Source of the DNA: Flavobacterium sp. HJ-32-4
GTDB taxonomy: Bacteria; Bacteroidota; Bacteroidia; Flavobacteriales; Flavobacteriaceae
Assembly (NCBI RefSeq): GCF_022532105.1
Contig: NZ_CP092832.1
Coordinates: 186,001 to 250,000, forward strand
Direction of reading: 5' to 3'
DNA length: 64,000 nt
Position 1 is the stretch's first letter; the number at the start of each line of letters is the position of its first letter. Below are positions 52,629 through 58,989 of the stretch, piece after piece. A program made the translations under genes and the position numbers. Under the pieces are notes generated by a model. It did no database searches. It saw only the letters and a list, made by a program, of their open reading frames with translations, and was not told where the DNA came from.

Positions 52629-52657
52629 GCAACTGCCCCTTATTTAATACATTGCAA

Positions 52658-54958
52658 ATGAACCAGGATTATATCAAGCCCGACAACTGGTCGGTTATAG
52701 AAGAAGGATTTGATGCCGAGCGGGTAAAATCATCCGAAAGTCTTTTCAGCATCGGCAACGGTGCGATGGGCCAACGGGCCAACTTTGAGGAAAAATACTC
52801 CGGCGAAACGTTCCAGGGAAGCTATATAGCGGGCATCTATTATCCCGATAAAACAAAAGTAGGCTGGTGGAAAAACGGGTATCCGGAGTATTTCGCAAAG
52901 GTACTCAACGCGCCTAACTGGATTGGAATCAACGTGACTATCAACGGAGAGTCGCTTGACCTACACAACTGCCGTGAGGTGCGCCATTTCCGCCGGGAGC
53001 TCAATATGCGCGAAGGATGGTACCACCGCTCTTTCGAAGCCGTACTACAAAACGGCACGGAGATTAAGGCCGACATCCGTCGTTTCCTTTGTATGGACCT
53101 GGACGAAGTAGGTGTGATCCGATATGAGATCGCGGCGTTAAATACAGCGGCCACAATAGTTTTCGAACCGTATCTGGATGCGGGCGTGCACAACGAAGAC
53201 GCCAACTGGGAAGAGAAATTCTGGGAAACACTTGCCGTTGACCATAAGAGAGACAGTGGCTATGTCACAGCCCGTACCTATAAGACGCATTTTGTTGCGA
53301 CGACGTTCATGCACAACGCGGTAGCACTGGCTGAAACGGAGTTGGACGCCACACCGGAGGTAACCCAAAACGACGATACACTATCAATGGCCTATACCGT
53401 TCATGCGGAAAAAGGGGTCAAGGCCTCCCTCACCAAATTCGGTGGCTACGCGGTATCACTCAACCATACCGATACGCTGGCCGGTGCCCAACAGGCAATT
53501 TCCCGCGCGCAGGCGATCGGTTATGACGGCTTGCTGGCGCAACAGATAGCGGCGTGGGCTGCCATCTGGGAAATGTCGGATATTACCATTGACGGAGATG
53601 TAAAGGCACAACAGGGCATCCGTTTCAACATCTTCCAACTGAACCAGACCTATTCAGGTAAGGATTCACGCCTGAATATTGGGCCTAAAGGCTTCACCGG
53701 TGAAAAATACGGCGGATCGACTTACTGGGACACCGAAGCCTACTGCATTCCATTTTATATGGCTACCAAAGACCAACAGGTCGCACGTAACCTCCTCACC
53801 TATCGCTACAACCAACTGGATCGCGCGATCGAAAACGCGGGCAAACTGGGCTTCACCAACGGAGCGGCGCTCTACCCGATGGTGACGATGAATGGGGAAG
53901 AATGCCATAACGAATGGGAAATAACCTTTGAGGAAATCCACCGAAATGGCGCGATTGCCTTCGCTATTTACAACTATCATCGTTTTACAGGCGACTATTC
54001 TTATATCCCTGAAAAAGGCCTGGAAGTGCTGATCGCGATTGCCCGCTTCTGGCAACAACGGGCTACCTGGTCGGACTACCGCCAGAAGTACGTCATACTG
54101 GGCGTCACGGGGCCAAACGAATACGAGAACAACGTCAACAATAACTGGTATACCAATTACCTGGCGGCCTGGTGTATCCGATATGCATCGGAACAAGTCG
54201 AGCAGGTGCGTGGGGAGTATGGGGATGATTATCTCCGTATTGTACAGAAAACCAAGCTGACGCAGGAAGAACTCGCCACCTGGCAGAAGGTATCGGAGAA
54301 TATGTACTATCCCAAATCCGATGAATTGGGCGTTTACCTCCAACAGGATGGTTTCCTCGATAAAGAACTCGTGAAAGTAGCCGACCTCGACCGCTCGCAA
54401 CGTCCGCTGAACCAAAAGTGGTCGTGGGACCGTATCCTGCGTTCGCCTTACATCAAGCAGGCCGATGTGCTGCAGGGGTTCTATTTCTTCGAAGACCATT
54501 TTACACGTGAGGAACTGGAGAAGCATTTTGATTTCTACGAGCAGTTTACCGTACACGAAAGCTCGTTATCGCCTTGCGTGCACTCGATCCAGGCGGCGGT
54601 ATTGGACAAAATGGAGATGGCATATGCCTTCTATCTCCGCACTTCGCGACTCGACCTTGACGATTACAACAAGGAAGTAGAGGAAGGATGCCACATCACT
54701 TCCATGGCCGGAACCTGGATGAGTATAGTGGAAGGCTTTGGCGGAATGCGCGTACGCGATGGCGTCCTGCATTTCACACCGCGGATTCCGAAAGAATGGA
54801 AAGGGTACTCGTTCAAAATTAACTTCCGTGGGCAAATACTGAAGATTTCCGTACATCCGACCGAGACGAAATTCTCACTGGAAGGTGGAAACGAATTGAC
54901 CGTGGTGGTCAATGGCAAGGAAGTAACGGTCGAACCAAATGGTTTGGTGACAGTTTAA
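52658..54958 (+). CDS. GH65 family glycoside phosphorylase (maltose phosphorylase-like)
   Basis: This 766-residue enzyme splits a disaccharide with phosphate into glucose and beta-glucose 1-phosphate. The N-terminal beta-sandwich (SSESLFSIGNGAMGQRANFEE in part, YIAGIYYPDK) and the (alpha/alpha)6 barrel (TYWDTEAYCIPFYMATKDQQ in part) are clear. The general acid E488 lies in GVTGPNEYENN. C-terminal ITSMAGTWMSIVEGFGGMRV and the beta-sandwich VTVEPNGL follow. Its partner pgmB and the maltodextrin setting favour maltose over trehalose or kojibiose, but sequence alone does not settle that. Start ATG 52658 is preferred over a TTG 6 bp upstream. Confidence 0.93.
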   Translation: MNQDYIKPDNWSVIEEGFDAERVKSSESLFSIGNGAMGQRANFEEKYSGETFQGSYIAGIYYPDKTKVGWWKNGYPEYFAKVLNAPNWIGINVTINGESLDLHNCREVRHFRRELNMREGWYHRSFEAVLQNGTEIKADIRRFLCMDLDEVGVIRYEIAALNTAATIVFEPYLDAGVHNEDANWEEKFWETLAVDHKRDSGYVTARTYKTHFVATTFMHNAVALAETELDATPEVTQNDDTLSMAYTVHAEKGVKASLTKFGGYAVSLNHTDTLAGAQQAISRAQAIGYDGLLAQQIAAWAAIWEMSDITIDGDVKAQQGIRFNIFQLNQTYSGKDSRLNIGPKGFTGEKYGGSTYWDTEAYCIPFYMATKDQQVARNLLTYRYNQLDRAIENAGKLGFTNGAALYPMVTMNGEECHNEWEITFEEIHRNGAIAFAIYNYHRFTGDYSYIPEKGLEVLIAIARFWQQRATWSDYRQKYVILGVTGPNEYENNVNNNWYTNYLAAWCIRYASEQVEQVRGEYGDDYLRIVQKTKLTQEELATWQKVSENMYYPKSDELGVYLQQDGFLDKELVKVADLDRSQRPLNQKWSWDRILRSPYIKQADVLQGFYFFEDHFTREELEKHFDFYEQFTVHESSLSPCVHSIQAAVLDKMEMAYAFYLRTSRLDLDDYNKEVEEGCHITSMAGTWMSIVEGFGGMRVRDGVLHFTPRIPKEWKGYSFKINFRGQILKISVHPTETKFSLEGGNELTVVVNGKEVTVEPNGLVTV

Positions 54959-55013
54959 CAAAATATGCGGTTTTCCCGTAACCGACGTTGCGGCGCGCTT
55001 CCGAACTTTGGGT

Positions 55014-55050
55014 CCAGACCTCAAAGGTTTTAAAAACCTTTGAGGTCTGG
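55014..55050. repeat. Perfect 17-bp-arm palindrome (REP-like) upstream of the Y1-like gene
   Basis: CCAGACCTCAAAGGTTT (55014-55030) and its exact inverse complement AAACCTTTGAGGTCTGG (55034-55050) are separated by 3 nt. It ends 15 bp before the Y1-like gene start. Similar palindromes are, to my knowledge, frequent in Bacteroidota genomes, which I cannot check here. Confidence 0.9.
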
Positions 55051-55065
55051 GCAAAACACCAAAAA

Positions 55066-55518
55066 ATGGAAAAGCGACCTCTTCTTGAAGCCGGAAAAAC
55101 CTACTGGATCCGACAAACAGGCAACAACAATGAACCGTTGTTCCTTGAAAACCGGAACTTTACGTTCTTTATCCGACTGATGCGTAAGCACCTGCCCGTT
55201 GCCTACGACGTGCAGGCCTATGCCCTAATCGAAACCGAGATACAACTCGTTTTGACCGTGAAGGATGGCATGCCGCCGCGATACGCCGAAAAACTCTACC
55301 AGCCATTATCCAATTTACTAAACGCCTACGCGAAAGCCATCAACAAACGGTATGGCCGCTCCGGAAGCCTGTTCCGCGTTCGCTACAAACGCCTGCTGAT
55401 CGGTAGCAACGCAATGCTGGCCGATGTCATCCACCAAACGCACGTATTACCGGCGCGAACGGGCCGAAAGTATACGTTCTATCCGTACTCTTCCTACACA
55501 AACCCACTATTTCTATGA
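55066..55518 (+). CDS. Diverged Y1/HUH (REP-associated tyrosine transposase-like) protein without catalytic residues
   Basis: The 150-residue protein has the layout of IS200/RAYT-type Y1 transposase domains: an N-terminal strand with LFLENRNFTFFIRLM, the strand YALIETEIQLVLTV (52-65), the helix LSNLLNAYAKAINKRYGRSG (81-100) with SLFRVRYKR (101-109), and the late motif FYPYSSY (138-144). In active relatives the strand reads Y-C-L-M-P-N-H-F-H; here both metal-binding His are replaced by E58 and Q60, and the YIHxNP motif reads V121-I-H-Q-T. So the protein is probably catalytically dead and kept for nucleic-acid binding. Start ATG 55066 is chosen after the palindrome. Its stop overlaps the GH13 start (ATGA at 55515), so it is coupled to the operon. 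Confidence 0.75.
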   Translation: MEKRPLLEAGKTYWIRQTGNNNEPLFLENRNFTFFIRLMRKHLPVAYDVQAYALIETEIQLVLTVKDGMPPRYAEKLYQPLSNLLNAYAKAINKRYGRSGSLFRVRYKRLLIGSNAMLADVIHQTHVLPARTGRKYTFYPYSSYTNPLFL

Positions 55519-57341
55519 AACGACTGCTGCTCTTACTCCTCGCCTCCTCGGCCTTCGCCCAACTTTCAAAGGTCGAGCCGCCCTTTTGGTATGTAGGGAT
55601 GCAAAACCCCCAACTGCAGATTATGTTCTACGGAAAGAACATCAGCCAGTATACCGTAACGGCTCCTACCAACATCCCCGTGACATCGGTCATCCGTACG
55701 GAAAACCCGAACTACCTTTTTGTGACGATCAATACGGCAGGACTTTCCCCGTCTGATGTAGTCTTCTCTTTTTCTCTTAAAGGAAAACAGGCGTTTACGC
55801 GGACGTATGAACTTCGGGCGCGAAAGCAAGGATCCCGGATGCGAAAAGGATACGATTCTTCGGATGTAATGTACCTGCTGATGCCGGATCGTTTTGCCAA
55901 TGGCAACCCCGCAAACGACAACACGGCCGATACCGCCGAAAAAGCAGATCGCACCATCAACAACGGACGACACGGCGGCGACTTACAAGGGATCATCGAC
56001 CACCTCGATTACATACAACAAACCGGTGCCACGGCCATCTGGAGCACACCGCTTTGTGAAGACAACGACCCAAGGGGCTCGTATCACGGATATGCCGAGT
56101 CAGACGTCTACCGCATCGACCCACGGTACGGCACCAACGACGACTACTTGAAGCTTTCATCCGAACTGCACAAGCGGGGCATGAAATTGGTACTGGATTA
56201 CGTAACCAACCATTGGGGCGCGGAACACTGGATGATAAAAGACCTTCCGACCTACGATTGGATCCACCAGTTCCCGGGTTACGCCCAAAGCAACTACCGG
56301 ATGACCACCCAATTCGACCCCAACCGGGCCGAGAGCGATAAGCGTTACTGTGTAGACGGCTGGTTCGTAAAATCAATGCCTGACCTTAACCAGTCAAATC
56401 CGCTTGTGGTTACCTACCTGACCCAAAACGCGATTTGGTGGATCGAATATGCCGACCTCGACGGTTTCCGGGTCGACACCTACTCCTACAACGACAAAGA
56501 AGGTATCGCCAAATGGACCAAAGCCATCACCGACGAATACCCCTATTTCAATATCGTGGGCGAAGTCTGGATGCACGACCAGACGCAAATGGCCTACTGG
56601 CAAAAAGACAGCCGAATCGGGGCAATCGATAATTATAACTCGTATTTACCGAGCGTGATGGACTTCACCCTTCACGACGCCATTGGGTCGGTTTTCAACG
56701 AAGACCAGCCGTCATGGGACAGAGGAATCGTGAAGTTCTATGAGAACTTTACGAATGACTTTCTCTATCCGAATATCAATAACATGCTGGTATTCGCAGA
56801 AAACCACGACACGCAGCGCTTCAACCATCTGTATGGGAATGATATCCGGAAGTATAAACTGGCCATGGCCCTCATCGGCACGATCCGGGGCATTCCACAG
56901 GTATACTACGGTTCTGAAATTGGGATGGCGGGCAACAAAGACCAAGGCGACGGCGACATCCGACGCGACTTCCCGGGCGGCTGGCCCGGCGACACACAAA
57001 ACGCCTTCACCCGTGCCGGACGTACGGCCGAACAGAATGCCTATTTCGATTTCACGTCACGCCTGTTCAACTGGCGGAAAACGGCGTCGGTCATCCATCA
57101 TGGAAAAACGAAACATTTCCTTCCGGAAAACAACGTATACGTGTATTTCCGATACGATGACAGCCATCTCGTGATGGTCGTCCTGAACAACCACCCTGAA
57201 CGGCAAACCATCAAGACCGACCGCTTCCGCGAGATCCTGAACGCCTCGAAAGGACGCGACATCCTAACAGAACAAACTGTCGACCTGTCTTCACAAATCA
57301 CGATCGAAGGAAAAACCCCTATGATCATTGAAATTCGTTGA
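55515..57341 (+). CDS. GH13 neopullulanase/cyclomaltodextrinase-like enzyme
   Basis: The 608-residue enzyme has a signal peptide (KRLLLLLLASSAFAQ), a cyclomaltodextrinase N-terminal beta-sandwich (about 20-105, VEPPFWYVGMQNPQLQIMFYG in part) and a GH13 barrel with D321 in DGFRVDTYS, E350 in VGEVWMHD and D432 in ENHDTQR. A C-terminal beta domain follows. No T9SS domain is present, so it is probably periplasmic, where it shortens maltodextrins after SusCD import (SusA-like role). Signal plus N-domain fit the Bacteroides neopullulanase. It overlaps the Y1-like gene by 4 nt and is followed by a second GH13 gene with a 1-bp gap. Confidence 0.93.
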   Translation: MKRLLLLLLASSAFAQLSKVEPPFWYVGMQNPQLQIMFYGKNISQYTVTAPTNIPVTSVIRTENPNYLFVTINTAGLSPSDVVFSFSLKGKQAFTRTYELRARKQGSRMRKGYDSSDVMYLLMPDRFANGNPANDNTADTAEKADRTINNGRHGGDLQGIIDHLDYIQQTGATAIWSTPLCEDNDPRGSYHGYAESDVYRIDPRYGTNDDYLKLSSELHKRGMKLVLDYVTNHWGAEHWMIKDLPTYDWIHQFPGYAQSNYRMTTQFDPNRAESDKRYCVDGWFVKSMPDLNQSNPLVVTYLTQNAIWWIEYADLDGFRVDTYSYNDKEGIAKWTKAITDEYPYFNIVGEVWMHDQTQMAYWQKDSRIGAIDNYNSYLPSVMDFTLHDAIGSVFNEDQPSWDRGIVKFYENFTNDFLYPNINNMLVFAENHDTQRFNHLYGNDIRKYKLAMALIGTIRGIPQVYYGSEIGMAGNKDQGDGDIRRDFPGGWPGDTQNAFTRAGRTAEQNAYFDFTSRLFNWRKTASVIHHGKTKHFLPENNVYVYFRYDDSHLVMVVLNNHPERQTIKTDRFREILNASKGRDILTEQTVDLSSQITIEGKTPMIIEIR

Positions 57342-57342
57342 T

Positions 57343-58989
57343 ATGAACTACCGCATCCTCCTACTCCTTTCCTTTCTGGTGAACGCTATGGGCTTTTCGC
57401 AACACGCCTCCCCCAAAAAAACGCCTTTCCTGTGGCCATCTGCTAACCTCTATTTTGTGGTAACCGACCGTTTCTGCAACGGCGACACAACCAATGATGT
57501 GAACTTCGGACGCACCAAGCCGGCAGCGAAATTCCGCGGTTTCGAGGGAGGTGATATCAAAGGCGTGACAAAGAAGATCAAAGAAGGCTATTTCGACCGA
57601 TTGGGCGTCAATGCCCTCTGGCTTACACCTATCGTAGAGCAGATTCATGACGGAACGGATGAAGGGACAGGATTATCGTATGGCTTCCATGGCTATTGGA
57701 CGCGAGACTGGAGCGCCCTCGACCCCAATTTTGGCACCGAGGCCGACTTGCAGGAATTGGTCACAACCGCCCACGCACATGGCATCCGGATCGTATTGGA
57801 CGCCGTTATCAACCACACCGGGCCCGTAACACACTCCGACCCTGAATGGCCTTCTGACTGGGTACGCACGGGCCCGACTTGCTCGTACAAAAGCTACGAA
57901 ACCACTACTGCGTGTACCTTGGTGGCCAACTTGCCGGATGTATTGACAGAATCGGATACCCCAGTCGAACTACCTCCTTTCCTGTTGGAAAAATGGAAAA
58001 ACGAAGGGCGTTACGAACAACAGACGGCAGAATTGGACGCTTTTTTCAAAGCAACGGGTTACCCGCGTGCACCAAAGTACTATATCATCAAATGGCTAAC
58101 CGACTACGTACGCAAGTTCGGCATTGACGGCTATCGCGCCGATACGGTAAAACACACCAATCCGGAGGTTTGGATGGCACTGAAAACACAGTGTGACGCT
58201 GCCTTCGCGGAATGGAAAAAAGCACATCCGGAAAGCGTGCTTGACGACAACCCGTTCTTTATGGTAGCCGAGGTGTATGGATACGGTGTAAGCGGCGGAC
58301 GCAACTACGATTTCGGCGACCACAAAGTCGACTATTTCGACCACGGATTCGATGCGATGATCAATTTCGAATTCCGTTGGGATGCTGATAAAGACTATGC
58401 CTTTCTTTTTGGGAAGTATGCCGAGAAATTCGCCACCACACTAAAGGATGTTACCGTCCTGAACTACACGGCCTCCCACGACGATGGCAACCCTTTTGAC
58501 GCCAAACGGGTGAAGTCGTTCGAAAACGCGAACAAACTACTGTTGTGTCCGGGTATCTCCCAAACCTATTATGGCGATGAAACCGCTCGGCTTCTTGTCG
58601 TTGACGATGCCACGGGTGACGCCAAACTGCGGTCGCCGATGAACTGGGACGCGATCGAAAAGGACGCTTCCACCCAGGCGATTCTGGAACACTGGCAGAA
58701 AATAGGACGCTTCCGCGGACGCCACGTCGCGGTAGGAGCCGGTACGCACACCGTATTATCTACAACGCCGTATGTCTGCGCACGACAGTATGCGCAGCAC
58801 GGCATTTCAGACGCCGTTGTAATCGGACTCGATCTGGCAAAAGGCGCTAAAACAATCGCCGTTACTGGTGTGTTCAAAGAGGGCCAAAAACTGCGGGACG
58901 CCTATTCGGGGCAGGAAACGAAAGTGAAGAAGGGCGCGGTAACGATTGATTCACCCTTTACGGTCGTACTACTCGAAGAAGTCCACTAA
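57343..58989 (+). CDS. GH13 alpha-amylase family enzyme
   Basis: This 548-residue enzyme begins with a signal peptide (YRILLLLSFLVNAMGFSQ) and goes directly into a GH13 barrel without an N-domain. Active-site residues are D267 in DGYRADTVK, E310 in VAEVYGYG and D380 in TASHDDGN. The family region II/III elements VINHTGPVTHSDPEW and FHGYWTRDWSALDPNFG are seen. An insert at about 180-240 (SYKSYETTTACTLVANL) is larger than in the neighbour. It lacks a sorting domain, so a periplasmic or membrane-linked maltodextrinase/amylase role is likely, complementary to the first GH13 enzyme. Start ATG 57343 is used; the one at 57328 lies inside the preceding gene. Confidence 0.92.
   Translation: MNYRILLLLSFLVNAMGFSQHASPKKTPFLWPSANLYFVVTDRFCNGDTTNDVNFGRTKPAAKFRGFEGGDIKGVTKKIKEGYFDRLGVNALWLTPIVEQIHDGTDEGTGLSYGFHGYWTRDWSALDPNFGTEADLQELVTTAHAHGIRIVLDAVINHTGPVTHSDPEWPSDWVRTGPTCSYKSYETTTACTLVANLPDVLTESDTPVELPPFLLEKWKNEGRYEQQTAELDAFFKATGYPRAPKYYIIKWLTDYVRKFGIDGYRADTVKHTNPEVWMALKTQCDAAFAEWKKAHPESVLDDNPFFMVAEVYGYGVSGGRNYDFGDHKVDYFDHGFDAMINFEFRWDADKDYAFLFGKYAEKFATTLKDVTVLNYTASHDDGNPFDAKRVKSFENANKLLLCPGISQTYYGDETARLLVVDDATGDAKLRSPMNWDAIEKDASTQAILEHWQKIGRFRGRHVAVGAGTHTVLSTTPYVCARQYAQHGISDAVVIGLDLAKGAKTIAVTGVFKEGQKLRDAYSGQETKVKKGAVTIDSPFTVVLLEEVH

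Follow-up and report, generated by a model that had tools for sequence, protein, structure and literature searches.

A 150-aa protein encoded within a maltodextrin operon is a homologue of the RAYT (TnpA-REP) transposases that has lost its catalytic residues, is held by purifying selection and lies next to a perfect palindrome of the cognate REP-like type. We consider it reasonably probable (about 0.6) that this protein is a RAYT without catalysis, kept by selection and now acting only through its hairpin-binding half. In a more far-reaching form of this reading, a bacterial transposase has become entirely a sequence-specific binder of palindromes or hairpins, both the protein and some ten genomic sites are under selection, and loss of catalysis with the gene retained has happened again at a second operon comprising alpha-2-macroglobulin, lipoprotein-like and penicillin-binding-protein genes; we hold this form tentatively, at slightly under even odds.

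Gene Layout of the Maltodextrin Operon

The window, meaning the whole stretch of 64,000 nt that was analysed, covers bases 186001-250000 of a 3.53-Mb genome assembled as one contig (G000), and its sole Rfam match is one tRNA. The operon runs in the order LacI regulator, MFS transporter, beta-phosphoglucomutase, GH65, the 150-aa protein, GH13 cyclomaltodextrinase and GH13, and includes the following features.

52652..54958, plus strand: GH65 gene (PF03632, PF03636, PF03633), 5' of the dead RAYT and in the same direction
54954..54980, plus strand: neighbouring MITE-end-like repeat, TTTAACAAAAT across the GH65 stop codon and then the short hairpin TGCGGTTTTCCCGTA
55014..55050, no strand: perfect palindrome with 18-bp arms and a 1-nt loop, a cognate REP-like site with core ACCTCAAAGGTTTTnAAAACCTTTGAGGT, 11 copies in the genome
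55066..55518, plus strand: catalytically dead RAYT (TnpA-REP) homologue of 150 aa, ATG at 55066, stop at 55516-55518
55515..57341, plus strand: GH13 cyclomaltodextrinase-like gene (PF00128, PF09087, PF10438)
57328..58989, plus strand: second GH13 gene (PF00128)

The palindrome occupies the interval between GH65 and the dead RAYT, ending 15 nt before the ATG of the latter. Its arms (55014-55031 and 55033-55050) are 100% complementary around the single loop base and the whole measures 37 nt; a preliminary description of this DNA had it as perfect, which it is, with arms of 17 bp, which are in fact 18 bp. The same description placed the palindrome 15 bp before the start of the protein and had the protein end in a stop/start overlap with the GH13 gene, and the coordinates confirm both, the GH13 ATG at 55515 overlapping the dead-RAYT stop by 4 bp (ATGA).

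A RAYT without Catalytic Residues

Kinship of the 150-aa protein is established by the RAYT family profile together with the fold. The NCBIfam model REP_Tyr_transpos scores 12.5 bits against a cut-off of 80, no Pfam family matches at E <= 1, and the fold is a Y1 HUH fold. The comparison with TnpA-REP that had been proposed as a check returned exactly that protein (E. coli, PDB 4er8) as the closest fold, with 135 residues matched. Family profile, fold and alignment agree on the originally suggested RAYT/Y1 scaffold lacking catalytic residues.

The alignment set 106 distinct intact RAYTs (175-225 aa, selected for HxH) against 11 dead ones. The HUH motif is absent from the window protein (H58E, H60Q), whose E58 and Q60, already named in the preliminary description, align to both histidines of the intact relatives, a column fixed by construction among the 106 because these were selected for HxH. 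The missing tyrosine had been assigned to V121; its correct position is Q124, in a column that holds Tyr in 98% of the intact relatives. At three more near-invariant columns, H14, N128 and H132, the window protein has W, L and T; these columns might, as a guess, be parts of the active site. Among the 128 distinct RAYT loci, which were not selected for HxH, four have no HxH at the HUH place, namely L025 (G034), L047 (G150), L140 (G421) and the truncated 60-aa L116.

The losses extend across the clade of the window protein, for which we used a dead set of seven (the window protein, P0001, P0003, P0005, P0006 and the G150 and G034 proteins, omitting P0002 as the same orthologue as L047 and P0004 as a 112-aa fragment). 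H14 and H58 are gone in all seven, H60 in six (P0005 retains it) and Tyr in all five that are long enough to span its column; N86, Y88, N93, R98, G100, L102, F103 and R109 are retained in 7/7. Extra positive charge of the dead proteins over the first 115 residues is not significant (p 0.09). With HUH and Tyr gone, single-strand cleavage and joining of REP sequences by the dead RAYT is not expected.

Between G000 and G150 the dead gene shows dS 0.52, dN 0.056 and dN/dS 0.108, compared with dN/dS of 0.020-0.050 for five operon genes and 0.109 for the GDPD gene in the same pair. Judged from this one species pair, and with a ratio above most of its neighbours, the dead RAYT is under purifying selection, and the maintenance implied by the earlier proposal of a domesticated protein is borne out.

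The Same Locus across Genomes

An intact RAYT of 192-193 aa sits between GH65 and GH13 in G044, G225 and G216. In G044 and G225 it is flanked by a palindrome to either side, in G216 one was found upstream only, and these intact RAYTs carry the window's own CCTCAAAGG palindrome type. G034 has a dead RAYT of 116 aa between two palindromes and without the GH13 overlap, and G150 (MAG JAIXYI01, locus L047) and G000 both have a dead RAYT of 150-152 aa with an upstream palindrome only, the ATGA overlap and the distance from palindrome to start being the same in the two. The five genomes other than G000 are the only ones with both GH65 and GH13 as neighbours among the 133 RAYT loci fetched (seven rows, two of them repeats), the window itself lying outside the 133. 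The dead RAYT is about 40 residues shorter at its C-terminus than the intact relatives at the locus, and in G287 GH65 and GH13 stand 110 bp apart with no RAYT between them.

Six genomes at one locus form an intact-to-dead series, and orthologues sharing the His/Tyr losses in the same maltodextrin locus, which the preliminary description had suggested looking for, are present in G150 and G034. In the tree, the seven dead proteins make up one supported group (97/95) and the three intact locus proteins another (99/93); a single clade of the six maltodextrin-locus rows and four P-rows is not rejected (AU p 0.385), with long branches present. Because intact RAYTs fill the same slot elsewhere, the operon position was likely inherited from an ancestral RAYT insertion.

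A Constrained Cognate Palindrome

Dropping identical proteins reduced the 133 fetched RAYT loci to 128 distinct ones, and a perfect inverted repeat with arms of at least 12 lies within 150 nt upstream in 86/127 of them and within 150 nt downstream in 66/123, against 2/640 control windows from the same loci. The arm often takes the form ACCTnnnAGGT with a middle that varies between RAYT groups, and each arm of the window palindrome is itself a short inverted repeat. RAYT loci are thus often flanked by inverted repeats and the spacing of the palindrome is the same in G150, as anticipated for a REP-like cognate site. Palindromes on both sides of the gene, a hallmark of RAYTs, are not seen in G000 and G150, where the palindrome is upstream only, and this hallmark is soft because a downstream palindrome within 150 nt is confined to the fraction of loci given above.

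The genome count proposed in the preliminary description gives 11 copies of the core in G000, all perfect with up to 2 mismatches permitted, and 0 matches for the reversed control; the palindrome therefore exceeds chance, and the 12-base half-site of the core has no further occurrence in this genome. G150 has 10 core copies, again all perfect (<= 3 mismatches permitted), nine of which are at loci common with G000. Across these nine loci 0/252 arm positions have changed, compared with 3/9 loop bases and 235/1253 positions of the 70-nt flanks (18.8%, poorly alignable stretches included). The chance of unchanged arms is near 2e-23 at the flank rate and near 1e-8 at 7% divergence, the low end of long BLAST matches, and by our own arithmetic (0.93 to the 28th power) the chance of finding nine of eleven sites untouched at 7% drift is about 5e-7. 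The constrained core arms point to sequence-specific recognition, and the dead RAYT is the best candidate for the protein that would recognise the palindromes.

Each of the 11 copies also forms 3 to 5 of the 5 pairs that adjoin the invariant core on its outer side, although the letters at the third and fourth of these pairs vary between copies, so that pairing is maintained besides the core sequence. The core is not invariant everywhere, as two copies in G034 carry changes that are symmetric and paired, and six in G044 depart from the loop-1 pattern by 1-2 mismatches. G000 and G034 have only the maltodextrin site in common (12 G034 regions with 13 palindromes, of 16 counted, several regions being compared with one short flank). 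The two G000 sites that are unconserved in G150 count against full conservation. Their flanks are on different contigs there (synteny breaks), and all that G150 has beside the left flank is half a palindrome (L224) or a sequence resembling the palindrome but differing at 8/28 positions (L220). Rearrangement at palindromes is possible for these two (G000:C1:891370 and 1278424; L220, L224).

Distribution and Setting of the Sites

For the census, 398 genomes were sampled evenly from a larger group within the genus, and the palindrome (loop 1-8) is present in 15 of them. Copy numbers are 12, 11, 7, 6 and 5 in the five genomes in which a RAYT was found at this locus, and 10 of the other 393 have 1 to 5 copies with no RAYT found at this locus by a check that covered RAYT matches with fetched DNA, so that palindrome and locus RAYT are associated (Fisher p 4e-8). 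Two palindromes in G361 are separated by 555 nt, and the interval contains no RAYT match.

Within G000, 10 of the 11 sites lie behind the 3' end of one or both adjoining genes, the remaining site being divergent, and four of the 11 lie between convergent genes as judged from open frames and family matches. Fifteen of the 16 site neighbours searched matched a family (outside the search were both L008 neighbours and the right-hand neighbours of L011 and of the second L012 site), as follows.

dNK, H+-PPase, UPF0102, LD-carboxypeptidase, GH20, RecO, saccharopine dehydrogenase, YjbR
aldehyde dehydrogenase, alpha/beta hydrolase, two metallophosphoesterases, DUF72, ribulose-phosphate epimerase, LigA

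These families show no theme, and a sugar regulon was rejected on this ground. The preliminary description had suggested that the protein may control the sugar operon; as its main role this is unsupported because the operon palindrome is 1 of 11 and the others are mostly at the 3' ends of unrelated genes.

The repeat at 54954-54980 looks like one end of a MITE-like repeat of ~130 bp that occurs in G000, the end motif of which gives 91 + 111 matches (<= 2 mismatches) against 21 + 28 in the control. The repeat has the ends TTTAACAAAA..TACGGTTTTCCCGTA, often with a core near GTAAGGGACGCATCCGCCCCTCCCCTA, and was noted at L201-L203, L207, L210-L212, L214, L215 and L218 besides the window; full elements were also observed. 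A MITE-end-like copy (<= 3 mismatches) lies within 90 nt of 11/11 palindromes in G000 (controls 4/226) and of 8/10 in G150 (controls 0/206). Because the MITE-end-like hairpin adjoins all 11 G000 copies, another element may have spread the palindromes.

This proximity and the position after a gene 3' end at 10/11 sites would both suit palindromes conserved for a reason of their own, such as 3' mRNA protection, termination, chromosome structure or MITE-like spread, beside a protein kept for an unrelated role. The genomes with palindromes but no RAYT found at this locus and the outer arm pairs that vary in letters with pairing retained fit as well. However, if hairpin structure alone mattered, the core should accept paired changes, of which there are none at the nine common loci, and the association with the locus RAYT is strong. 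A terminator scan, moreover, returned no site at the palindrome itself (two matches beside it, both on the minus strand, about the chance number), which led us to reject the palindrome as a terminator. We regard this explanation as unlikely, albeit the most serious alternative to a binding-only RAYT.

Recurrence and Other RAYT Loci

A second locus, in G309 (L176), has a broken-frame RAYT between two CCTAACAGG palindromes, neighboured by an alpha-2-macroglobulin gene and a penicillin-binding-protein gene (Pfam). By eye, the neighbours are the same in G301 (L175), where a dead 143-aa RAYT is followed by a lipoprotein-like gene, and in G421 (L174), where the dead RAYT lies within one 424-aa open frame with a lipoprotein-like part; neither has a Pfam match. 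G421 has two further HUH-less RAYT copies, L173 and L177, the latter with palindrome-like sequence still on both sides.

In Flavobacteriaceae we also observed RAYTs that share a reading frame with a HemF-like part (coproporphyrinogen III oxidase), which Pfam confirms in L081 and L103. The palindrome lies inside the fused frame in 10/13 long frames (L081, L090, L101, L103, L105, L111, L113, L115, L120 and L121), always in the same phase, and encodes the linker between the two parts with peptides such as DLQGFENLAGQ; L094, L114 and L125 have no palindrome inside the frame. A neighbour from the haem pathway recurs in G421, where L178, a RAYT that has an HFH motif, immediately precedes a gene recognised by eye as hemE-like.

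Proposed Mechanism and Alternatives

We infer an order of events in which an ancestral RAYT entered the GH65-GH13 gap of the maltodextrin operon with flanking palindromes, then lost its HUH histidines and tyrosine, and was afterwards retained by selection. The dead RAYT would recognise the CCTCAAAGG palindromes at about ten genomic sites, either as extruded DNA hairpins or as RNA hairpins near transcript 3' ends, and binding may affect expression or genome structure. The site 15 nt before its own start codon could let the protein tune its own translation and that of the coupled GH13 gene.

Taken alone, this last step would make the protein a local RNA regulator under autogenous control: it would bind the polycistronic mRNA at the hairpin 15 nt ahead of its start codon and thereby govern how much of itself and of the coupled GH13 enzyme is translated, the other ten palindromes being bystanders. 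Between the GH65 stop and the dead-RAYT start the RNA folds into a long hairpin (MFE -54.4, z -6.6), and the ATGA overlap and layout recur in G150. The other eight common palindromes are equally invariant, however, and the dead gene of G034 has a second palindrome behind it and no overlap with GH13, so that a purely local role seems rather improbable to us. We give little credence to the notion that the protein is a relic kept only as a translated leader, its frame surviving through the stop coupled to the GH13 start: the ATGA overlap in G000 and G150 would fit, but coupling alone would let the dN/dS of the frame approach 1, and a ratio of 0.108 indicates amino-acid selection, the core residues are retained 7/7 and G034 retains the dead gene without the overlap.

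It is likewise very improbable that the protein is a helper without catalysis of its own, still mobilising palindromes jointly with a second Y1 enzyme acting in trans, although G034, equally dead, has other palindrome positions, given that G000 contains no full-length Y1_Tnp match and no second homologue at E <= 0.4. The sole Pfam Y1_Tnp match in G000 was rejected as a mobilising enzyme, being partial (positions 25-90 of 121) with a frame that reads broken and, by eye, a different palindrome-like neighbour. Since 9/10 G150 sites are at common loci, there has been little palindrome movement since the split.

Comparison with Known Systems

The window locus resembles the RAYT/TnpA-REP system (PDB 4er8), as far as the available parts of PMC8266576 and PMC6006769 describe it, in its fold, in the palindrome by the gene with dispersed copies and in having one homologue in G000. 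It differs in that HUH and the catalytic Tyr are gone, the C-terminus is shorter, the palindromes number 11 and, by eye, no GTAG stands beside the window palindrome. The palindrome agrees with REP elements as intergenic, multicopy palindromes of 20-40 bp (37 nt, 11 copies), but 11 copies are few compared with the high REP copy numbers given in the accessible text of PMC3733652. TIRYTs and TIRtrons, according to that paper, also have a Y1 enzyme between inverted or self-complementary repeats, and differ in that HUH and Tyr, gone in the window protein, are conserved in all aligned RAYTs and TIRYTs (PMC3733652).

Unlike IS200/IS605, the window locus is not an autonomous element with an active TnpA and defined ends; its catalytic residues are gone and its position is common to several genomes. 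In the E. coli malE-malF region, a REP palindrome lies between genes of the maltose operon, a similar setting inside a maltose operon that differs in its neighbour, which is a RAYT in the present case; no RAYT homologue is known beside the malE-malF REP.

The literature searched, with subscription papers outside its scope and some sources available in part, yielded no report of a natural HUH-less RAYT. The sections available of PMC8266576 term TnpA-REP the first prokaryotic domesticated transposase, describe RAYTs as domesticated with a behaviour nearer to that of housekeeping than of transposase genes, and treat the mode of REP spread by RAYTs as unresolved; they also use TnpA-REP catalytic mutants as controls. 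At the maltodextrin locus catalysis can be left out of account, since the protein and most of the sites persist without it, which makes a role confined to binding directly testable.
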